A DNA stretch of 64,000 bases from Anaerotruncus rubiinfantis (lineage in GTDB: Bacteria > Bacillota > Clostridia > Oscillospirales > Ruminococcaceae): contig NZ_FKLA01000009.1 in NCBI RefSeq assembly GCF_900078395.1, positions 882,614 to 946,613 of the forward strand, read 5' to 3'. A program made the translations under genes and the position numbers. Below are positions 44,244-55,533 of the stretch, in pieces (the first letter of the stretch is position 1; each line of letters starts with the position of its first letter). Under the pieces are notes generated by a model. That model did no database searches and was not told where the DNA came from. It was given only the letters and a program-made list of their open reading frames with translations.

Positions 44244-45062
44244 TCAAAGGCCGTACTGCGAAAGGATGTGATCGTAGCGGGCAATGACCCGTTCACAGAC
44301 GGCGTTCACCTTGTCAAAATCCATGGCGTCCACATAATAATCTTCGAGCTGGTCATGGAGTTTTTTCGCTTCGGCAAGCAGCCGGGCCGCCTGGTCGAGC
44401 ATCTGCGCGGCGGCTTTCTTGTTGAATGCGATCCGTTTACGGGATTTTTTGAGCTGTTCCGGATCGGTGAAGCGGCGGGAGCGGATAATTTTGTAAGGCT
44501 CGATATCCGGCTTGTGGTAATCATTCGCAGTCATGAAGCCGAGTTTCAGTTCCGGGATGAACAGATGTTCCAGCTTTTCAAACGGGGAGAGCGGACAGTA
44601 GCAGGTGATGATGTTCCAGCCAGCTTCCAGCGCTTGACTGCGCAGGGAGGTGAGCAGCAGCCGGGAGGCCGCGCCGTATGGATCTTCGATCAGATAGACG
44701 CGCTCACAGATGGTGCGTGCGGTTTCATCAAATATGGTAAGCCCCTTGTTTGTAACAGCGGAAAGGAAGCGGACCGACTCGTGGCCTCTGCCGTCCGGGC
44801 CCCCCTTGAATTCAGCCATGGCGATCCGCCCGGCCGCTTTGACCGTTTTGATGACCGAGGTGGCGTCGAGCGCAATCCGGTATGTATCCCCGATGAGACT
44901 CTGCGCCGCGCCAAGGAAGCGGCAGGAATGCTCGTGACAGCGGCTGATCTTTGCGGCCAGCGCCATGATGTCCTGACGGGATTCAAAGAGCTTGTGTTCA
45001 TCCCAGCAGGAGGACAGGTCGATCAGCTGTTCAAACGCGCCGGGATATTTGGGGTCGATGAC
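44244..45062 (-). pseudogene. PRK06851-type ATPase, C-terminal part (interrupted gene)
   Basis: This is the distal 272 codons of a two-domain ATPase whose first 96 codons lie at 52487-52774. The fragment starts at the junction with VIDPKYPGAFEQLIDLSSCW, which in the intact family directly follows DGTAPH. It continues with a helical linker and the second half-domain (SAVTNKGLTIFDETA, HLFIPELKLGFMTAND), where the second P-loop has decayed to IEDPYGAASR, and ends in a long helical stretch. No start codon of its own is evident at the junction; the open frame runs 300 bases further upstream into element DNA but that part has no family likeness. The family's function is unknown; it is common in spore-forming Firmicutes. 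Confidence 0.85.
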
Positions 45063-45067
45063 ATGGG
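45062..45067 (+). repeat. Left attachment-site core (CATGGG)
   Basis: CATGGG here and at 52486-52491 form the direct repeat at the ends of the inserted element. On the coding strand of the ATPase it is CCCATG, covering the codon for His and the first base of the next codon. Joining the two sites keeps the frame. The core could be shorter than six bases. Confidence 0.75.
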
Positions 45068-45137
45068 CTGGGGTTGCGGACGATAAAAAACGGGGATAAG
45101 CCGCCGGAGTCGGCGGGGTGCATCCAGATTCTTCGTA

Positions 45138-45148
45138 TTGTATTACAA
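45138..45148. promoter_or_regulatory. FCD-GntR operator candidate, distal site
   Basis: TTGTATTACAA is a perfect palindrome that fits the TNGTNNNACNA consensus of FadR-subfamily GntR regulators. The same 11 bases recur at 45293. Confidence 0.6.
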
Positions 45149-45235
45149 ATTGAGACCTGAATGAAAATCGAGGTGAATGAGAGGACTTTATGTGCGAAAA
45201 AATTCGTTTTTCGTGTGACAAATCATAGATTATTA

Positions 45236-45264
45236 TTGACTTTATCATCAAAGAGCAATATACT
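45236..45264 (+). promoter_or_regulatory. Sigma-A promoter of the GntR gene
   Basis: TTGACT (45236-45241) and TATACT (45259-45264) with 17 bases between, 76 bases before the start codon and flanked by the two operator candidates. Confidence 0.75.
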
Positions 45265-45292
45265 GAAATAAAAGTAATATGATTATAAAAAG

Positions 45293-45303
45293 TTGTATTA
45301 CAA
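45293..45303. promoter_or_regulatory. FCD-GntR operator candidate, promoter-proximal site
   Basis: Second exact copy of TTGTATTACAA, about 29 bases after the -10 element, where a bound repressor would block transcription of its own gene. Confidence 0.65.
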
Positions 45304-45339
45304 ATTTGCCCAAGATGGGGATAGAAATGAGAGCGATTT

Positions 45340-46044
45340 ATGGAAATAGAAAATCGTGCCACTCAGGCGAAGGGCAAACCAAACGTCAGTGATATGGTCT
45401 ATGAACGGTTGCGTAACTCGATCTATTCCGGCGAATGGAAGCCCGGCGAACGAATTCCATCGGAGAGCAAGATCTGCGAAATGATGAGCGTCAGCCGGGT
45501 ATCTGCGCGCGCGGCTATCAGCCGGCTGATGGGGCAGGGGCTTGTGGAGCGCAGGCAGGGCGGCGGTACCTACATCCGTACCTGCAGCTGTCCGGATCAG
45601 TTTGAACCGATGATCCCTTATATGCTTTCCGGACGGGCGGACCGGGTCAGTATGTTTGAATTCCGTAAGATCATCGAAGTGGAGAGCATCGGCCTTGCGG
45701 CGATGCGGGCCGATATTGGGCAGATCGACCAGATGCAGGCGGCGTATGAAGCAATGGCCATGGCGAAAAGCGATGAACTCATCAGCAGGTATGATATGCA
45801 GTTTCATCATCTGATTGCGGTTGCGACCAATAATCCGGTGATCCTTCGGGTCTTTGAAATTATTCAGGACACCTACCTGCGTCCCATGCTGGATCAGAAT
45901 GTCGCGGTCATGGGAGCGTACGGAGCGGTTTATCATGAAAAGATGATCCGCGCGGTGGAGCGCCGCGATGTCGCACAGGCCAAGCGTTTGATGGAGGAAC
46001 ATATCAACAACACCATTCAGATGACGGCGCAGCTCAACCGATAA
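45340..46044 (+). CDS. FadR-subfamily GntR regulator (FCD domain)
   Basis: A 234-residue regulator. The N-terminal winged helix has MVYERLRNSIYSGEWKPGER, then IPSESKICEMMSVSRVSARAAI, the GntR pattern. The C-terminal FCD domain (about 85-225) has EFRKIIEVESIGLAA, the metal-binding Asp and His of DMQFHHLIAVATNNP, and the later H-type ligand near MEEHINNT. Members answer to sugar acids such as glucuronate, galacturonate or lactate. It is the first gene on the left side of the element and probably controls itself and the two metabolic genes that follow. Confidence 0.9.
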   Translation: MEIENRATQAKGKPNVSDMVYERLRNSIYSGEWKPGERIPSESKICEMMSVSRVSARAAISRLMGQGLVERRQGGGTYIRTCSCPDQFEPMIPYMLSGRADRVSMFEFRKIIEVESIGLAAMRADIGQIDQMQAAYEAMAMAKSDELISRYDMQFHHLIAVATNNPVILRVFEIIQDTYLRPMLDQNVAVMGAYGAVYHEKMIRAVERRDVAQAKRLMEEHINNTIQMTAQLNR

Positions 46045-46198
46045 CCTGCTGGGCGCGCAGTGAAATTGAAGCAGGCGGAGGGCGGCTTTGCCGCGAAAAA
46101 TGGCCTGTCGCCTGCGGAATACCGGTTTGACGGCCCTGCCATTGCCAAAAGCAAGGGCGGCCCCAAATAGAAAATGATCAAAAGGGGGGATTGTAATT

Positions 46199-47095
46199 TT
46201 GCGAGAAAGCATTCACAAATATTTCAAAGTAGGAACGATCCAGTGGATGAGCCACCCTGGGCGTGAGCTTCTGGAAAGCCTGAAGACGATCGCATGCGAC
46301 GAATTTTTCGATGCGGTGGAAGTGTGCAAAGTCGGGGACGACGAGACGCGCGCGAAAGCGAAGGCGCTTTTGGAGCAGAGCCACCTGAAGGTGTGCTATG
46401 GAGCGCAGCCGCGGCTGCTGGGGCCGAAGCTGAACCCGAACGACCTGGACGAAGAGGGGCGCAAAAAGGCGGAGGCCACCCTGATTGAAGCGGTGGACGA
46501 AGCGGAATACCTGGGTGCGAAAGGCATCGCGTTCCTGGCGGGCAAATGGGAGGCGGCGCATAAGGAGGAAGCGTATGCGCAGCTTCTGAAAACGACCCGC
46601 GCGGTGTGCGATTACGCGAAGGCAAAAGGCATGATGGTGGAGCTCGAGGTGTTCGATTACGACATGGACAAAGCCGCGCTGATCGGGCCGGCGCCGCTGG
46701 CGGCGCGGTTCGCGGCGGATATGCGGCTGACGCACAGCAACTTCGGCCTGATGGTGGACCTGAGCCATTTCCCGACCACCTACGAGACGAGCAAATTCGT
46801 GGTGCGCACGCTGCGGCCGTACATCACGCATTTCCACATAGGGAACGCGGTGGTGAAGGAAGGATGCCCGGCATACGGAGACAAGCATCCGCGGTTCGGA
46901 TTCCCGAACAGCGCGAACGACACGGAGGAGCTGGTGGATTTCTTCACGGTGCTGAAGGAAGAAGGCTTCTTCAACCCGGCCGACCCGTATGTGCTGTCGT
47001 TTGAGGTGTCGCCGTTTGGGGACGAGGACGCGGATATCATCCTTGCGAACACGAAGCGTGTGATCAACCGCGCGTGGGCAATGGTGGAAGACTGA
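46199..47095 (+). CDS. Sugar phosphate isomerase/epimerase-like TIM-barrel protein
   Basis: A 298-residue protein of the xylose isomerase-like TIM-barrel superfamily (AP endonuclease 2 fold). Metal ligands are expected in VELEVFDYD (Glu), LMVDLSHFPTTYE (Asp and His), THFHIGNAV and LSFEVSPFG (Glu), which fits this family. The substrate is not clear; members isomerise or epimerise sugars, sugar acids or hydroxypyruvate. The TTG start lies behind AAAGGGGGGA. Third positions are very rich in G and Ala is almost always GCG, a usage unlike the nearby backbone genes. It is followed by a dehydrogenase gene after 28 bases. Confidence 0.8.
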   Translation: MRESIHKYFKVGTIQWMSHPGRELLESLKTIACDEFFDAVEVCKVGDDETRAKAKALLEQSHLKVCYGAQPRLLGPKLNPNDLDEEGRKKAEATLIEAVDEAEYLGAKGIAFLAGKWEAAHKEEAYAQLLKTTRAVCDYAKAKGMMVELEVFDYDMDKAALIGPAPLAARFAADMRLTHSNFGLMVDLSHFPTTYETSKFVVRTLRPYITHFHIGNAVVKEGCPAYGDKHPRFGFPNSANDTEELVDFFTVLKEEGFFNPADPYVLSFEVSPFGDEDADIILANTKRVINRAWAMVED

Positions 47096-47123
47096 GGCGT
47101 TTGCCGGATAAGGAGGAACTTTT

Positions 47124-48080
47124 ATGAAAATCGTGATATTGGACGGCTACACCGAGAATCCGGGCGACCTTTCATGGGGGGAACTGGAAGCGCTCGGAGA
47201 ACTGACGGTCTATGACCGGACGCCGGCGGAGAAGATCGCGGAGCGGATTGGGGACGCGGACGCGGTTTACACGAACAAAACCCCGATCAGCCGGGAGACG
47301 CTGGAGAAATGCCCGCATGTGAAGTTCATCGGGGTGCTGGCGACCGGCTACAACATCGTGGATGTTGGGGCGGCGAAAGAACGCGGGATACCGGTGTGCA
47401 ACATCCCGACCTACGGGACCGACGCGGTGGGACAGTTCGCGATCGCGCTGCTTCTGGAAATCTGCCACCACATCGGGCACCACAACAAGGCGGTGCACGA
47501 GGGCAGATGGGAGCATAACGACGACTGGTGCTTCTGGGATTACCCGCTGATCGAGCTTGCGGGCAAAACGATGGGGATCATCGGGTTTGGGCGGATCGGT
47601 CAGGCGACGGGACGGATCGCGAAGGCGCTGGGGATGAAGGTGATCGCGTACGATTCGTATCCGAATGAGAGCGGAAAAGCGCTGGCGGAATATGTGGATC
47701 TGGAAACGGTGCTGAAAACCTCGGATGTGATCGCGCTGCACTGCCCGCTGTTCCCGGAGACCGAAGGGATCATCAGCAGGGAAAACATCGCGAAGATGAA
47801 GGATGGGGTGATCATCCTGAACAACTCGCGGGGTCCGCTCATCGTGGAGCAGGACCTGGCGGACGCGTTAAACAGCGGGAAGGTTTACGCGGCGGGGCTG
47901 GATGTGGTATCGACCGAGCCGATCAAGGGGGACAACCCGCTTTTGGGGGCGAAGAACTGCATCATCACGCCGCACATCAGCTGGGCGCCCAAGGAGAGCC
48001 GCCAGCGTCTGATGGATATCGCCGTCGACAACTTCCGGCAGTTCCTCGTGGGCAGACCGGTCAATGTTGTAAATCCGTAA
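47124..48080 (+). CDS. D-2-hydroxyacid dehydrogenase (NAD)
   Basis: A 318-residue enzyme of the glycerate/lactate/phosphoglycerate dehydrogenase group. It interconverts a 2-hydroxy acid and its 2-keto acid. Visible are the NAD motif GIIGFGRIGQATGRIA, the catalytic Arg in NNSRGPLIVE, the Glu in VVSTEPI and the His in TPHISWAP. AAGGAGGA precedes the ATG. In the element it probably works on the product of the isomerase, for example tartronate or hydroxypyruvate-like acids; that part is inference. Confidence 0.92.
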   Translation: MKIVILDGYTENPGDLSWGELEALGELTVYDRTPAEKIAERIGDADAVYTNKTPISRETLEKCPHVKFIGVLATGYNIVDVGAAKERGIPVCNIPTYGTDAVGQFAIALLLEICHHIGHHNKAVHEGRWEHNDDWCFWDYPLIELAGKTMGIIGFGRIGQATGRIAKALGMKVIAYDSYPNESGKALAEYVDLETVLKTSDVIALHCPLFPETEGIISRENIAKMKDGVIILNNSRGPLIVEQDLADALNSGKVYAAGLDVVSTEPIKGDNPLLGAKNCIITPHISWAPKESRQRLMDIAVDNFRQFLVGRPVNVVNP

Positions 48081-48086
48081 AACGAA

Positions 48087-48127
48087 ACAAGAGGCGTGCA
48101 GCCCATTGGGCTGCACGCCTCTTATGC
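48087..48127. terminator. Terminator between convergent element operons
   Basis: AGAGGCGTGCAGCCCA / TGGGCTGCACGCCTCT hairpin followed by TATGCTTTTT on the plus strand. It lies between the dehydrogenase gene and the convergent aldolase gene. Confidence 0.85.
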
Positions 48128-48139
48128 TTTTTGGAAAAC

Positions 48140-48784
48140 CTAGCGCACTTTGCGTGCTTTGGCAAGTCCGATATAACTGGCTGCCCGGTCCCGCAGCTCG
48201 TCGAAACGCCCCTCGGCCGCAAGCTTCGGATCAAAAAGGCTCGAGCCGACGCCGACCGAGCAGGCGCCCGCCGCAAAAAATGCGGGTGTGGTATCGAGCG
48301 TCACGCCGCCGACCGGCATCATGCGGATCTGCGGCAGCGGTCCGCGCAGATCCTTGATATAGGCAGGCCCAACGCTGCCGCATGGGAACACTTTGACAAT
48401 CTGCGCGCCCGCCTGCCAGGCGGTGAGCACTTCGGTTGGGGAGAAAGCGCCTGGGATGGCGAGACAGCCGTAGGTGAGGCACATTTCGATCATTGGGAGC
48501 GAAAGGGTAGGCGCCAGCACAAAGTCCGCGCCCGCGATGATTGCGGCGCGTGCGCTGGCCGCTTCGAGCACGGTGCCCGCGCCGACCGCCATCCGATCGC
48601 CATAAAGCTCCCGGCTGCGTTCGATCATCCGCAGCGCGCCGGGGGTGTTCAGCGTAATTTCGACGGCGCGCACGCCTCCTTCGTAAAGTGCCGCGAGCGT
48701 TCCTTCCAGATCCTTTTCCGCGATGCCGCGCAGGATCGAAACGACGCCGGTTTCGCGTATCTGCTCAAATGCCGTCTGTCCCAT
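48140..48784 (-). CDS. eda: KDPG/KHG aldolase
   Basis: It cuts 2-keto-3-deoxy-6-phosphogluconate to pyruvate and glyceraldehyde 3-phosphate. The 214 residues show VRAVEITLNTPGAL (catalytic Glu), VGAGTVLEAASARAAI, IVKVFPCGSVGPAYIKDLRG (Schiff-base Lys in VKVFP) and MPVGGVTLDT, as in Eda. GGAGGAGAT lies before the ATG. It follows the KDG kinase gene by 14 bases, and together they make the lower end of hexuronate breakdown. Cleavage of related 2-keto-3-deoxy acids is also possible. Confidence 0.93.
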   Translation of the reverse strand: MGQTAFEQIRETGVVSILRGIAEKDLEGTLAALYEGGVRAVEITLNTPGALRMIERSRELYGDRMAVGAGTVLEAASARAAIIAGADFVLAPTLSLPMIEMCLTYGCLAIPGAFSPTEVLTAWQAGAQIVKVFPCGSVGPAYIKDLRGPLPQIRMMPVGGVTLDTTPAFFAAGACSVGVGSSLFDPKLAAEGRFDELRDRAASYIGLAKARKVR

Positions 48785-48798
48785 AAATATCTCCTCCT

Positions 48799-49746
48799 TT
48801 ATCGATAGATCACGGTTGCTTTTTGCCGGATGCGGTCAAACTGCTCCCGGTTGGGGAGCCCCTCCACGTCGCCGTTGGCGGAAACCGCCGCGCCGCCCAT
48901 GATGGAACCCATTTCGCCGCATTCCCGCACGCCGCAGCCTTCGAGGATGCCGCACAGGAAACCGGCGTCAAACGCGTCCCCCGCGCCGACATTGTCGACG
49001 ACCGGCCCGTCTACAATCGGGATCATAAAACTTTCGGACTGGTCCGCGACCATCGCGCCGCGTTTGCCCATCTTCACAGCGATCCACCGCGCGCCTTGCG
49101 CGCGCAGCGCCGCGATGATCCCCTCCGGTTCCCTTTCCCCCACCAGCATTTCGCCTTCGTCCTGCCCGATGAGTACGATGTCGCTTTGGGCGAACAGCGG
49201 CGCGAGGGTTTGTTTTGCGCGCGCGGCGTCCCAGAGCCGCAGACGGATATTGGGGTCGAAGCTGACCAGCGCGCCTGCCTCCCTGGCAATCCGCATGATG
49301 TGCGGCACGGTTTCGGCGCAGGATGCGGAAAGCGCTGGGGTGATGCCGCTCAGATGGACGATCCGCGCAGAACGGATGTAATCTGCGTCGAGATCCTCCG
49401 GACAGAGGGTGCTCGCGGCGGAATCGCGGCGGTAATAAAAGACGCTGGTCTCGCCGCCGGAACGAAACTGCTTAAACATGAGGCCAGTGGGATTGGTGCC
49501 CGAGCGGAGCACCCGGGAGGTATCCACCCCCTCGCCGCGCAGTTCACGCAGTAAAAATTCCCCGAATTCGTCGTTGCCGATCTTGCTGATCCAGCCGCTC
49601 GAATGCCCGAGCTTGGCAAGGCCGATCGCTACGTTGCTTTCCGCGCCGGCCGTCTTTTTGGTAAATTCCGAAACATAGCGCAGATAGCCGCTTTCCCTTG
49701 GAATAAAGACCACCATCGTTTCGCCAATGGTAACCAGGTCCAGCAT
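48799..49746 (-). CDS. kdgK: PfkB-family sugar kinase, probably 2-keto-3-deoxygluconate kinase
   Basis: A 315-residue ribokinase-family enzyme. It begins MLDLVTIGETMVVFIP and has the KTAGAESNVAIGLAKLG substrate loop and the C-terminal DNVGAGDAFDAGFL with the catalytic Asp. Its place next to the KDPG aldolase gene makes KDG the likely substrate. The start at 49746 is chosen because GGAGGA lies 6 bases upstream; an in-frame ATG 54 bases earlier lies in the leader. Confidence 0.87.
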   Translation of the reverse strand: MLDLVTIGETMVVFIPRESGYLRYVSEFTKKTAGAESNVAIGLAKLGHSSGWISKIGNDEFGEFLLRELRGEGVDTSRVLRSGTNPTGLMFKQFRSGGETSVFYYRRDSAASTLCPEDLDADYIRSARIVHLSGITPALSASCAETVPHIMRIAREAGALVSFDPNIRLRLWDAARAKQTLAPLFAQSDIVLIGQDEGEMLVGEREPEGIIAALRAQGARWIAVKMGKRGAMVADQSESFMIPIVDGPVVDNVGAGDAFDAGFLCGILEGCGVRECGEMGSIMGGAAVSANGDVEGLPNREQFDRIRQKATVIYR

Positions 49747-49810
49747 AACAGTTCCTCCGTTTTCGCATATAAGAAAATAGAACGTATTTACGAATAACAT
49801 TTACAAACGC

Positions 49811-49839
49811 ATTGTACCAGCGTTTTCAGCAGTTGTCAA
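49811..49839 (-). promoter_or_regulatory. Sigma-A promoter of kdgK-eda
   Basis: Read on the minus strand, TTGACA (49839-49834) and TACAAT (49816-49811) are 17 bases apart, 65 bases before kdgK. Just downstream, ATTTAC occurs twice about 10 bases apart (49786-49805 region), a possible regulator site. Confidence 0.8.
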
Positions 49840-49883
49840 TGCGCTTTTGGACGGACTCCCGGAAAAATTTTGATTGGGCGCAA

Positions 49884-49913
49884 TTGACAAGGCCAAACCA
49901 GGCGGGCTATAAT
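49884..49913 (+). promoter_or_regulatory. Sigma-A promoter of the IclR gene
   Basis: TTGACA (49884-49889) and TATAAT (49908-49913) with 18 bases between. It rules out the in-frame ATG at 49912 as a start, since that overlaps the -10 element. Confidence 0.8.
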
Positions 49914-49962
49914 GATCTCACAATATGAAACTATATTTGTATATGAGAAAGGCTGCGAACAT

Positions 49963-50721
49963 ATGGCCAGTGAACATAAACCCACTCTCCGGGTACTTTC
50001 GGTGCTGGAGCAGGTGTCGGCGGGCACGGGAAAATATACCCTGTCCGAGCTTTCCCGAAGCCTGGATATCCCGGTGAGCACCCTTTTTCCAATCGTGCGC
50101 ACCCTGCGGGAACATCAATATCTCGATTACGACCAGGCGGCCCAGACATATTCGCTGGGATACCGCCTTTTTGAAATCGGTAGCCGCATCCAAAATACCA
50201 ACGCTTACGAAAGCCTTGTGGAGATGATGTGGAAGATTGTGGATGGCTGCGGAGAGACCTGCCATTTTGGGATTCTTGACAGAGGGGATGTGCTTTATCT
50301 GGCGAAGGTCGATCCCAAGCAGCAACCCATCCGGATGTATTCAATGATCGGGCGGCGGCTGGCGGCCTATGGCACGGGAATCGGCAAGGCGCTTCTGCGC
50401 GATTTTACCCTTGGGCAGCTTCGTGAGACCTATCCGGACGGGCTCAGGCCCCTGACCGCCCATACAGTTACCGACTTTTCGGAACTTTACCGGCAGCTTC
50501 AGGAGATTAAAGCCACCGGTTTTGCATATGAAAATGAGGAGTCGAACGAATCGGTCCGCTGCATTGCCGTCCCGGTCGAATCGGGCGGGCGGGTGTCCGC
50601 CGCGCTCAGCGTGGCGATGCCGGTCTTTCGTTATGACGACCGAAAGAAGCGCTGCGCCGAACAGCTTTTGCGGGACGCGGCGGGCTATGCCGAAAAAATT
50701 GTTCCGCACCTGCATTTTTAA
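49963..50721 (+). CDS. IclR-family transcriptional regulator
   Basis: A 252-residue regulator with an N-terminal winged helix (LRVLSVLEQVSAGTGKYTLS, then LSRSLDIPVSTLFPIVRTL) and a C-terminal IclR effector domain (ARRLAAYGTGIGKALL-type GRRLAAYGTGIGKALL, and FAYENEESNESVRCIAVPV). It is divergent from kdgK-eda and so is the likely KdgR-type regulator responding to 2-keto-3-deoxygluconate or a similar acid. The ATG lies downstream of the promoter, behind GAGAAAGG. Confidence 0.9.
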   Translation: MASEHKPTLRVLSVLEQVSAGTGKYTLSELSRSLDIPVSTLFPIVRTLREHQYLDYDQAAQTYSLGYRLFEIGSRIQNTNAYESLVEMMWKIVDGCGETCHFGILDRGDVLYLAKVDPKQQPIRMYSMIGRRLAAYGTGIGKALLRDFTLGQLRETYPDGLRPLTAHTVTDFSELYRQLQEIKATGFAYENEESNESVRCIAVPVESGGRVSAALSVAMPVFRYDDRKKRCAEQLLRDAAGYAEKIVPHLHF

Positions 50722-50726
50722 GCGGT

Positions 50727-52268
50727 TTAGAAATTCCACTGGATGCGGATCTCCTGGCTTGCGTCCGTTTGGCGTTCCCCAATTTCGATCCGTCCTACCA
50801 CCAGCCCGATAACTGCGCGCGGGATGGGATCAAATCCCCACAGCTTTTCGATGCGCCCGGCGATGCCGGGCGCGTTTTGCTGTTCGCGTCGTTGGGATTC
50901 AAGCGCCGTCAGACGCGCTTGCAGCGTTTCGCGTTCGGCACAGAACTGTCCGAGGAGCTCGCGGAAGGTTTCCGGGGGAACAAGCCCCTGCGCATGGTCG
51001 AGATAGAGAGAACGCACCGCCGCATCCCGCCGCGCAATCTGCCCGCGCAGGGATTTGGCGTTCCGCTCCAGTATCAGCGCTTCCCCGTCCCGCACATGCG
51101 AAAGACGGCGCCCATCCGGCATCCGGCAAAGTGAATGGGCATACCCGCGGATGCGTGCTGCCACCGCGTCCTCCAGCCGGTCAAGCCGGATCGAATGCCG
51201 TGTGCAGTGGGGGATTGCCCGATTCGCTGCATAGGCGGAGCATTGCAGATAGCTGTGTTTTTGGCCCTTGTAGACATGGGAAACCTTGATCATCGGCGCG
51301 CCGCAATCAGCGCAGAATACCCGTCCTGCCAGCAGATGGACCGATCCGCTGCCATCCGAGCGGGTACGCGCGCAGAGCAGCCGCTGTACCGCTGCGAAGG
51401 TTTCCGGCGCAATGAGCGGTTCGTGCGTTCCGGGGACCCGGACCCATTCCTCTTTTGGAACAGCGGAGCACCGGTCGGATTTGTAGCTTGGCTTGCGTTT
51501 GACCCCCTGCACCAGCGTGCCGCAGTAGACCTCATTATGTAAAATCCGGCCCACAGTGGTGCGGTTCCAGCGTCCGCTGCCGGAATCGGCGCCATTCTGA
51601 TAGGCGAGCCCGGCCTGCCGCTTATAAGCGGTGGGGTTCGGGACGCCGCGGCTGTTGAGCAGATCGGCGATCCGCTGCTTGCCCATGCCGGAGAGACAGT
51701 GCGAAAAGATCTCCCGCACGATGGCGGCCGCCGTCGGGTCCGGGATGAGATGGTGCCGGTCTGCGGGGTCTTTCTGGTAGCCGTAAAGCGGGAAACTGCC
51801 GATGTACTGTCCATCCCGGCGCTTCTGGTCAAGGACTGCCCGGATGTTTTCTGAAAGGTCTTCCAGGTACCATTCGTTGACCAGCCCGTTGATCTGGCGG
51901 GCTTTTTTGTTGCCGCGCGCCGCGGTGTCCGCGTTGTCCACCACCGCGACGAACCGGACGCCCCAGAGCGGGAACAGACCGTGCAGATATTTTTCCACCA
52001 GTTCCATGTCACGGGTGAAACGGGATTGGTTTTTGCAGAGCACCACTTGGAATTTTCCCGCTTGGGCATCCCGGAGCAGTTCGTTGAAAGCGGGCCGGGC
52101 GCGGTCCGCGCCGGAATAGTCCTCGTCGCTGTAAATCCGGCAGATCTCCCAGCCCTGCTTTTCGGCATAGGCGATGAGCAGGGCCTTCTGGTTCTGAATG
52201 CTTTCGCTTTCCGCCGCGCCGCGCCCCTCGTCCTCGCGGCTCAGGCGGCAATAGACGGCGCAGGTCAT
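50727..52268 (-). CDS. Large serine recombinase (site-specific integrase)
   Basis: A 513-residue recombinase. The catalytic domain at the N-terminus has YCRLSREDE with nucleophile Ser10 and later KNQSRFTRD with the active-site Arg residues. It is followed by the recombinase domain (YGYQKDPADRHHLIPD to HNEVYCGTLVQG), a zinc ribbon (CADCGAPMIKV with later Cys residues in the YLQCSAY and PHC stretch) and a C-terminal coiled-coil region. This is the large serine integrase layout, which inserts and, with a helper, excises DNA at short attachment sites. The ATG overlaps the stop of the small upstream gene (ATGA). It sits 218 bases from the right attachment core and is the probable cause of the element's insertion. 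Confidence 0.94.
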   Translation of the reverse strand: MTCAVYCRLSREDEGRGAAESESIQNQKALLIAYAEKQGWEICRIYSDEDYSGADRARPAFNELLRDAQAGKFQVVLCKNQSRFTRDMELVEKYLHGLFPLWGVRFVAVVDNADTAARGNKKARQINGLVNEWYLEDLSENIRAVLDQKRRDGQYIGSFPLYGYQKDPADRHHLIPDPTAAAIVREIFSHCLSGMGKQRIADLLNSRGVPNPTAYKRQAGLAYQNGADSGSGRWNRTTVGRILHNEVYCGTLVQGVKRKPSYKSDRCSAVPKEEWVRVPGTHEPLIAPETFAAVQRLLCARTRSDGSGSVHLLAGRVFCADCGAPMIKVSHVYKGQKHSYLQCSAYAANRAIPHCTRHSIRLDRLEDAVAARIRGYAHSLCRMPDGRRLSHVRDGEALILERNAKSLRGQIARRDAAVRSLYLDHAQGLVPPETFRELLGQFCAERETLQARLTALESQRREQQNAPGIAGRIEKLWGFDPIPRAVIGLVVGRIEIGERQTDASQEIRIQWNF

Positions 52269-52411
52269 CTGTCCCGCCTGCTTTCCGCATCCGACTGGGC
52301 TTCAAGCATCAGGACGAGGCAGGTCTCCAGGAGCTGCTGTAAATTCTGGGCGCGTTCGGCTTCTTTCTCGGAACGGAATTCTTCCCGGAGGATCAAGTCT
52401 GGTTGTTTCAT
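52265..52411 (-). CDS. Small 48-residue protein coupled to the serine recombinase
   Basis: A 48-residue frame from ATG at 52411, behind GAGGTGAT, to a TGA that overlaps the recombinase ATG. It is highly charged and helical: MKQPDLILREEFRSEKEAER, then a Leu-rich stretch LQQLLETCLVLML and a charged end. It has no known domain that I recognise. Its size, place between recombinase and attachment site, and translation coupling fit a helper such as a recombination directionality factor or a DNA-binding regulator; this is inference. Confidence 0.68.
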   Translation of the reverse strand: MKQPDLILREEFRSEKEAERAQNLQQLLETCLVLMLEAQSDAESRRDR

Positions 52412-52449
52412 GCTGGATCACCTCAGCGTATCCTTATGCGCTGGACAAT

Positions 52450-52469
52450 CCCGCGTATGCGGGTTTTTG
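52450..52469 (+). terminator. Small hairpin with T-run beside the right attachment site
   Basis: CCCGC-GTAT-GCGGG followed by five T, 17 bases inside the right end of the element. Read on the plus strand it would stop transcription leaving the element, antisense to the ATPase N-terminal half. Confidence 0.55.
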
Positions 52470-52485
52470 AGAACGGTCCTCCCGT

Positions 52486-52491
52486 CATGGG
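52486..52491 (+). repeat. Right attachment-site core (CATGGG)
   Basis: Direct copy of the hexamer at 45062-45067. It marks the boundary where the ATPase N-terminal coding sequence stops and element sequence begins. Confidence 0.75.
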
Positions 52492-52774
52492 GCGCGGTAC
52501 CATCCGCAATTGAGGTTTTGATATCTCCGAGGATCACGCCGTCAAGCGAATCAACGTCGGAGGAGCAGTGGATGAGTTCCACATGGGAACAGCGTCCGCC
52601 GGCATGTTCGGCGACCTTTTTCATCAAGGAAGATTTGCCGGTGCCGGGCCCGCCTTTGATGACAAATTCACGCCAGCCGTCATTCGCATCGGCAAGCTGG
52701 TCAAAGCGGGAGACAAATCCCTGCGGCGTATTCGCGCCCAGGAAGAAGTGGTAAGGTTTTGCGCTGTTATTCAT
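52487..52774 (-). pseudogene. PRK06851-type ATPase, N-terminal part (interrupted gene)
   Basis: The first 96 codons of the interrupted ATPase. They hold YHFFLGANTPQGFVSRFDQL, the intact P-loop KGGPGTGKSSLMKK and HCSSDVDSLDGVILGD, ending with DGTAPH at the junction. Translation would run on for 22 element-coded residues to a stop at 52418-52420, giving a 118-residue truncated protein. With the C-terminal half at 44244 the full product has 368 residues. A hairpin covering the ribosome site lies just upstream. Confidence 0.87.
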
Positions 52775-52782
52775 AGAAAAAT

Positions 52783-52824
52783 CCTCCCAAAACGATTGTT
52801 ACCACATGGTATTCGTTTGGGAGG
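52783..52824 (-). promoter_or_regulatory. Hairpin masking the ATPase ribosome binding site
   Basis: CCTCCCAAAACGA (52783-52795) pairs with TCGTTTGGGAGG (52813-52824) with one bulged base, and TACC/GGTA pair inside the loop. On the transcribed strand the arm nearer the gene contains GGGAGG, the ribosome site of the ATPase gene, 9 bases before its ATG. It could act as a translation switch or as a processing site. Confidence 0.6.
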
Positions 52825-54193: not shown

Positions 54194-54494
54194 TTGGCGC
54201 CTTGCATGCGCCGCGGCTTTGCGCTCTGTGAGCGTTGGCATTGCGCCCTCCGCGCGCCTGGGATATCGCGCCCTCCGCGCGCCCGGGGTCCATTTCTTGC
54301 TTGTCCAAGAAATGGACGAAAGAAGACACGCGGGGACACCCCGCGGCCCCGTGCGCGCGATTTCGTTGCCTGCGGCAAAGATCGCGCGCAATCTGCTGAG
54401 ACAAAACGTTGTGTCCCGCGTGATGAAAAGCACGCGGGACATATTTTTGCGCCCGGCGCAAAAATGCGCTGCGCGCAAAGCGGACAAGCCGATT
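54194..54494. repeat. Palindrome-rich repeat block, left of the XRE pair
   Basis: No gene is seen here. The block holds a chain of palindromes: GCGCCCTCCGCGCGCC twice (about 54244 and 54268), CCATTTCTTG/CAAGAAATGG (54290-54315), GCGCGCGAT/ATCGCGCGC (about 54352-54388), TGTCCCGCGTG/CACGCGGGACA (54412-54441) with a T-run, and TTTTTGCGCC/GGCGCAAAAA. The first two modules recur, inverted, at 55247-55414. The T-run hairpin may end pduL transcripts. Confidence 0.72.
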
Positions 54495-55018: not shown

Positions 55019-55533
55019 TTAAGAAATCGCCGCCCTGCGGCGGCATCGATTGATCGCGTGATCCGCCCGGATTTTGCAGCCTGCCCATAACCTGGGAGCA
55101 CAATACGTTGCCATCAGTCCTGAGCTGACCGTTTCATTGGGAGCGCTTGCGATGCAAGTCTCGAAGTCTAAGGACGCGGCCGCCGCCTTTGCGAAGCAAT
55201 CAGCGGCGGTGGGGTTCCAAGGGGTTTCCCCTTGGCGTGTTCTTTCCCCCATTTCTTGCACGGGCAAGAAATGGGGCCCGGGCGCGCGGAGGGCGCCAGT
55301 GATTCTCAAGCGGCAAAGCCGCTTGATTCCCGCTTCTTGCACGGGCAAGAAATGGGGCCCGGGCGCGCGGAGGGCGCTCGTGATTCTCAAGCGGCAAAGC
55401 CGCTTGATTCCCGCCCGCGCGGCGACACGCGTGAATGTTTGCAGGTTTTTCAGAAAAGCCGAAATTTGCACACATTGGGAACACATTTCCATCGCATACT
55501 GAAAAACAGAAACAAAAAAGATGAGGTGCGCGT
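55019..55533. repeat. Palindrome-rich repeat block with an 81-bp tandem duplication, right of the XRE pair
   Basis: A 515-base gap without a convincing gene. It holds CCAAGGGG/CCCCTTGG near 55217, and two direct copies of an 81-base unit (55253-55333 and 55334-55414, nearly identical). Each unit has TTCTTGC/GGCAAGAA followed by GCGCGCGGAGGGCGC and TCAAGCGGC/GCCGCTTGA. The first two modules also occur inverted at 54244-54315. The open frame through the block codes only for the repeated sequence. The last 100 bases lead into the response regulator gene. Confidence 0.75.

Follow-up and report, generated by a model that had tools for sequence, protein, structure and literature searches.

The window analysed here is a 64,000-nucleotide stretch of Anaerotruncus rubiinfantis DNA (contig NZ_FKLA01000009.1), in which a gene of the PRK06851 family is split by a serine-recombinase element of 7,424 bp at window positions 45065-52488. 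The element is real and site-specific; judging from its sequence, it is likely to be a sporulation gene-intervening element that, like skin and gin, is cut out of the chromosome of the terminal mother cell. Mother-cell excision is the best explanation chiefly because four mother-cell genes are occupied by members of a single recombinase family, many of them accompanied by sigma-E-type promoter patterns. PRK06851 is the dual-wield NTPase (dwNTPase) family, and its Clostridioides difficile member is CD3298 (PMC10949312; here and below, cited papers are drawn on in excerpt). CD3298 belongs to the sigma-E regulon of C. difficile and has a sigma-E promoter (PMC3789822), and spores of a CD3298-deleted strain are heat-sensitive, with calcium dipicolinate (CaDPA) largely undetectable (PMC10449524). 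By homology with CD3298, the dwNTPase gene of the window is a putative sporulation gene.

The split dwNTPase gene and its junctions

On the minus strand, the first 96 codons of the PRK06851 protein lie at 52774-52487, followed by element DNA and then by the remainder of the gene at 45065-44244; the first-pass annotation, which had taken two separate frames for halves of one ATPase, placed them correctly. Against the profile NF005320 (PRK06851), the N-half open reading frame (ORF) matches positions 6-94 and the C half positions 90-356 of 363. Each half alone scores under the model's cut-off because it is a piece of a gene, and a full-length family match is reached after joining. Two copies of CATGGG stand 7,424 bp apart (45062 and 52486), and joining there gives a 368-residue frame without a stop; that annotation had reported both the repeat and the product, and the same values were obtained when recomputed from the sequence. 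The joined protein keeps all 42 of the columns that do not vary among 22 intact genes, which were taken from 25 rows by a length filter. The further comparison it had proposed, of the intact gene in relatives with the two junctions, was carried out, and intact genes match both sides. The six shared bases are weak evidence on their own, since CATGGG occurs seven times on the plus strand between 44900 and 52700 and only CA is common to the junctions of all relatives. The junction is beyond chance because the break falls at the same codon in 13 further genomes with two halves, every one of which can be rejoined in frame, and because 12 of 19 loci are uninterrupted.

These loci come from a scan of genome contigs, in which the single joined sequence as query gave no relative and an alignment-based query gave 19 loci: the match is uninterrupted in 12, and the other seven show the C half only. 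All seven C-half-only genomes hold both halves, with N matches ending at 97-107 and C matches beginning at 90-93. Five of 25 homologues, chosen from a set of at least 120, begin exactly at the C half (MIEPKYPG). Wider sampling consisted of a draw of 396 genomes from the family of A. massiliensis and a further draw at the level of the order, which we take to be Oscillospirales. The dwNTPase gene is present in at least 263 of the 396 genomes, and the counts of split genomes from this draw are lower bounds. Both halves were found in at least 10 of them (G001, G002, G003, G005, G006, G007, G038, G084, G106 and G120), and G390 has an N half followed by a recombinase, with no C half found. The order-level draw added both halves in G475 and G559, as well as G447, with an N half beside a recombinase and no C half found. 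The complete genome of A. colihominis DSM 17241 (L009/G004) shows the same kind of split, giving at least 15 split genomes beside the window, 13 of them with both halves. Other genomes with two matches were set aside as not split at this site: G136 and G210 have two copies, and G164, G173, G215, G302 and G354 reflect contig ends, a remote second match or a broken copy.

The dwNTPase junctions that were read lie in the codon after DGTxP, and CA are the only bases common to all sides. Crossover at CA was worked out for 14 pairs, the window included, and every one yields a frame of 360-376 residues with His at the junction; in G006, G007 and G038 the N side reads CAG (Gln), and the conserved His is restored only by the exchange. 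The joined genes that keep the fewest of the 42 invariant columns are those of G007 and G475 (36 each) and G559 (37). Element length on single contigs ranges from 3.9 kb (G475) and 4.75 kb (G007) up to 37.5 kb (G004). In the A. colihominis pair G004/G005, dN is 0.023 and dS 0.279 for the N half (dN/dS of about 0.08), and 0.029 and 0.432 for the C half (about 0.07). None of the 15 other split genomes was found to carry a second, intact dwNTPase copy. Among 15 intact full-length proteins compared, the nearest are 93.5% identical to the joined G002 protein and 92.9% to that of G003; therefore, presence of the element differs between near relatives. Simple inheritance of one old element was considered and rejected, as recombinase position, orientation and cargo differ among elements. 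As separate observations, G120 has a further recombinase-family gene (32% identical; G120:C1:2099606-2100976) about 1.2 kb upstream of its split dwNTPase N half, and P0180 is a 513-aa dwNTPase homologue with an internal duplication covering the DGTAPH region.

Upstream of the dwNTPase start lies a conserved 15-mer, GAATANCATRNNNTA, exact in 13 of 35 dwNTPase upstream regions of both split and intact genes. It has a single exact match in the window and a single match in the 3.1-Mb A. massiliensis genome, also ahead of dwNTPase, and is therefore a marker of this gene and not of sporulation genes generally.

The recombinase family and its four target genes

A search of 11 split genomes with the window recombinase gave the element's own enzyme as the closest relative (50-61% identical; in G038, 53% over part), except in G006, where the closest relative is on a contig that carries neither half; other copies in these genomes reach at most 44%. 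In the family draw, a recombinase at E<=1e-100 is found in 54 of the 396 genomes (58 matches). The 49 loci examined comprise 42 of these matches and seven others, with 16 matches outside the set. A target half is found on the same contig in 44 of the 49 loci: dwNTPase in 15, sleC in 11, cotJC in 16 and cwlD in two. The five loci left unassigned are those of G006, G424, G135, G298 and G299. Some genomes have several interrupted genes, namely dwNTPase and cwlD in G003 and G084, and dwNTPase and cotJC in G005.

SleC is a cortex-lytic enzyme precursor, and the half in G116 matches PDB 9h68 (E 2e-15). Both SleC halves are found in all 11 genomes, parted near query residue 185 (in G290 the N half extends over two contigs), and in three comparison genomes, selected because they show a long open reading frame, SleC is whole. 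CCTGG stands on both edges in 11 of 11 cases, with the sequence reading on to PTWPE as in the intact genes. The halves of cotJC, a manganese-catalase gene, were assigned by PF05067, and all pieces are found in 10 of 16 genomes; the N match in G005 contains stops. In G370, G340, G224, G012 and G266 the gene is in three pieces, with breaks near profile positions 65 and 150. The cotJC-like genes of G002, G006, G007 and G146 are also broken near position 65, apart from the site near 150, and in G019 (C1:284205-376147) the two halves lie about 91 kb apart on one contig, possibly the result of a large or nested element. The cwlD halves (TIGR02883) occur at two loci, where one half reaches a score of 212 (cut-off 222). 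For C. difficile, sigma-E control is reported for cwlD, and sigma-K control for sleC and for the manganese-catalase coat genes cotCB and cotD (PMC3789822). The C. difficile counterparts of all four targets are mother-cell genes, with CotJC equated to cotCB/cotD by family only.

When the targets are placed on a maximum-likelihood tree built from the 49 recombinases, three changes of target suffice, as few as four groups allow, and none of 200 label shuffles was as low. G424 and G006 were labelled dwNTPase in this count; a repeat without both, using the 44 linked labels, again gave three changes. The cotJC and sleC recombinases each form one group (100/100 support), as do those of cwlD (100/98), and the dwNTPase group may be ancestral. 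Two recombinases of the sleC clade, L077 and L078 (G359 and G391), have about 406 aa instead of the usual 510 or so, and no dwNTPase match was found in either genome.

The promoters of C. difficile sigma-E genes have ATA at -35 and a -10 element shared with sigma-K (PMC3789822). A sigma-E-type pattern based on this description, ATA-N16-18-CATANNNT, was searched for up to 420 bases upstream in the recombinase loci. It is present in 22 of 49 loci and on the opposite strand in one of 49; dinucleotide shuffles gave a mean of 1.2 and a maximum of 4 loci (200 rounds), and 1.5 loci are expected from its frequency in the remainder of these loci. By target, it was found for dwNTPase in nine of 17 (including G424 and G006), cotJC in 10 of 16, cwlD in both, sleC in none of 11 and the rest in one of three. 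Small ORFs stand ahead of many family recombinases, by script not all, and by the same approach a small-ORF start lies within 60 nt of the pattern in 19 of the 22 loci, the others being G001, G084 and G381. Among linked dwNTPase elements, the window and G390 are without the pattern, and in both a small ORF-recombinase pair comes after the N half and shares its orientation; eight of the other 13 have it, that of G084 far from the small ORF. As the N-half stop in the window falls six bases before a 48-aa ORF, the N half, this small ORF and the recombinase could share one transcript.

Proposed excision and the alternatives

The window element has two features of a gene-intervening element, namely insertion in a sporulation gene (by homology with CD3298) with the halves in frame and, at the level of sequence, a core repeat at both ends and restoration of the gene by exact excision. 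Under the proposed mechanism, the 7.4-kb element would be resident in a dwNTPase gene serving the sporulation mother cell, and during growth the gene would stay split with the cargo carried along. On sporulation, the small ORF and recombinase would be made, attL and attR would recombine at the CA dinucleotide, and the circle would leave. The mother cell would thereby gain the whole 368-residue gene, predicted to be needed for calcium-dipicolinate loading as in C. difficile, and the forespore would keep the element. Because the small ORF and recombinase of the window follow the N half head to tail, they are probably driven by the promoter of the dwNTPase gene itself. For the relatives of Anaerotruncus as a whole, it is on balance probable that a large recombinase family has mother-cell genes as its niche, with one target motif per clade (DGTxPH in dwNTPase, SEVYPTW in SleC, AAEQKAR in CotJC and DAGHGG in CwlD) and an operon of small factor and recombinase that in many cases has a sigma-E-type promoter; spore genes would be developmentally spliced, and metabolic cargo would be kept in the spore line and lost from the mother cell.

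Several observations weigh against excision in the mother cell. The sigma-E-type pattern is absent from the window recombinase, from all 11 sleC-clade recombinases and from 27 of the 49 overall, and the test itself was not blind because sequences were viewed before the pattern was fixed. The 15-mer was rejected as a general sporulation promoter, given its one match in the A. massiliensis genome. The tree does not resolve a single clade of dwNTPase recombinases, which fall on one side of a branch in only 23% of bootstrap trees; five of the 16 cotJC draft genomes are without one fragment, and G350, G019, G012 and G266 also hold another, whole manganese-catalase gene. With intact relatives about 93% identical to two of the split genes, the elements come and go like ordinary mobile DNA. 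The last point, together with the missing pattern in the window and the variation in cargo, size (about 2.9-37.5 kb), recombinase position and orientation, would suit an ordinary mobile element whose family favours attB sites in conserved coding motifs, inactivates dispensable sporulation genes by insertion and excises only for transfer. Such an element is nonetheless considered unlikely: 44 of the 49 loci fall in four different mother-cell genes, with five loci unassigned and no other target identified, sigma-E-type patterns recur in the family, and both halves are kept, with low dN/dS in the one close pair.

Further evidence concerns whether and when the gene is rejoined. Among the matches listed, the best full-length homologue of the joined protein is 75% identical; the lack of a closer excised form counts against developmental excision and also against a reversible phase-variation switch in growing cells. 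Serine recombinases can work in both directions with a directionality factor, and yin of Clostridium botulinum gives two subpopulations in culture (PMC10747680), yet the targets here are sporulation genes and the promoter patterns are of sigma-E type, which makes a switch during growth very improbable. There is similarly little likelihood that the halves work as separate polypeptides and the split is tolerated without excision. Both halves are conserved and the C half has a longer in-frame ORF (372 aa) extending upstream into the element, but SleC, CotJC and CwlD, which belong to unrelated families, would all need to work in pieces as well. An assembly chimera or decayed remnant can be given almost no credence, as a separate database protein (P0123) has the same left junction as the window (97.5% over 280 residues), the recombinase ORF is whole, and the complete A. 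colihominis genome carries the same kind of split. Sporulation-linked excision from the mother-cell genome is the favoured reading. If it is true, these bacteria would commonly control genes in sporulation through programmed DNA excision, which would explain why such spore genes appear broken in annotation; it would also imply selection for elements occupying genes used only in a dying cell and provide a source of natural integrase/att pairs. The split genes also open a way to study the dwNTPase family.

Element contents and known intervening elements

Features of the split gene and the element (window positions)
Feature	Position	Strand	Remarks
dwNTPase N half, ORF	52418..52774	-	118 aa: 96 native residues, then element-encoded codons to the stop
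dwNTPase C half	44244..45065	-	273 codons from His96, plus stop
Left attachment-site core CATGGG	45062..45067	.	CCCATG on minus strand; exchange dinucleotide CA at 45065-45064 (-), by comparison
Right attachment-site core CATGGG	52486..52491	.	exchange dinucleotide CA at 52489-52488 (-)
Large serine recombinase	50727..52268	-	513 aa; PF00239 Resolvase, PF07508 Recombinase, PF13408 Zn_ribbon_recom; PHROG integrase
Small ORF	52265..52411	-	48 aa; begins six bases past N-half stop; overlaps recombinase start
GntR/FCD transcription regulator (cargo)	45340..46044	+	
Xylose-isomerase-like TIM barrel, sugar isomerase/epimerase (cargo)	46199..47095	+	
D-2-hydroxyacid dehydrogenase (cargo)	47124..48080	+	
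KDPG/KHG aldolase (cargo)	48140..48784	-	TIGR01182 above cut-off
PfkB sugar kinase (cargo)	48799..49800	-	best NCBIfam KDG/KDGal kinase, below cut-off
IclR-type regulator (cargo)	49912..50721	+	best NCBIfam BhcR and KdgR, below cut-off
Conserved 15-mer GAATANCATRNNNTA	52800..52814	-	upstream of dwNTPase start; sole exact match in window

The recombinase has the resolvase catalytic domain, recombinase domain and zinc ribbon of a large serine recombinase, proteins that are typically about 450-550 aa long, and its best match in plasmids is 43% over the whole length. The 48-aa ORF matches no family in Pfam, NCBIfam or PHROGs and is, by analogy, a candidate recombination directionality factor. No transfer or phage structural genes were recognised among the element proteins, the recombinase being the only one to match a PHROG of known function, and megablast of the region against 50,697 phage records gave no match; by its recognised genes the element is not a prophage. 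The first-pass annotation had correctly named the serine recombinase, the sugar-acid genes and the analogy with skin. Cargo of other dwNTPase elements, by Pfam on nine protein heads, includes FeoA and FeoB (G001), an iron-dependent repressor (G002 and G007), a cation-ATPase N-terminus (G038), ABC transporter and FGGY kinase genes (G003) and a permease match below cut-off (G084). By eye, a FeoB-like ORF is also present in the G002 element and two HflK/HflC-like ORFs in that of G475. A class of elements consisting of a bare recombinase unit was dropped, as a 341-aa ORF accompanies the recombinase in the 2.9-kb sleC element of G116 and two additional ORFs do so in the 3.9-kb element of G475. Beyond the right end of the window element, repeats of the form CCATTTCTTGC..GCAAGAAATGG lie at 54290-54315 and 55248-55409, and an 81-bp unit there is repeated in tandem at 55248 and 55329.

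Beside skin, gin, yin and vfbin, SPbeta in spsM is a further known intervening-element case. No report of inserts in dwNTPase, sleC, cotJC or cwlD was found in the open-licence PMC literature, as represented by the excerpts available. The gin element in gerE of Bacillus cereus ATCC10987 (PMC5595907) is alike in being non-phage, in occupying a sporulation gene and in pairing a serine recombinase with a small factor, GirX. Its gene is rejoined in sporulation, as shown experimentally, whereas the window element is known from its sequence; gin also differs in gene, host and cargo and has three recombinase genes, and the two are likened by description, not by recombinase sequence. In C. difficile, skinCd in sigK (PMC5025042) also has a large serine recombinase; its small directionality factor is under sigma-E and its excision is limited to the terminal mother cell, both of which are proposed for the window element. 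It differs in being prophage-like, in its target and in a recombinase gene that is constitutively expressed and lies apart from the factor. The vfbin element in spoVFB of B. weihenstephanensis (PMC5595907, PMC10747680) also interrupts a dipicolinic-acid gene; however, it is prophage-like and its target is a dipicolinate synthase subunit. Similarly, yin in yabG of C. botulinum (PMC10747680) is an excisable element splitting a clostridial sporulation gene, but it is prophage-like and was found by its authors in one isolate only. The kind of element is already known from these systems, and the targets, the recombinase family and the metabolic cargo look new.

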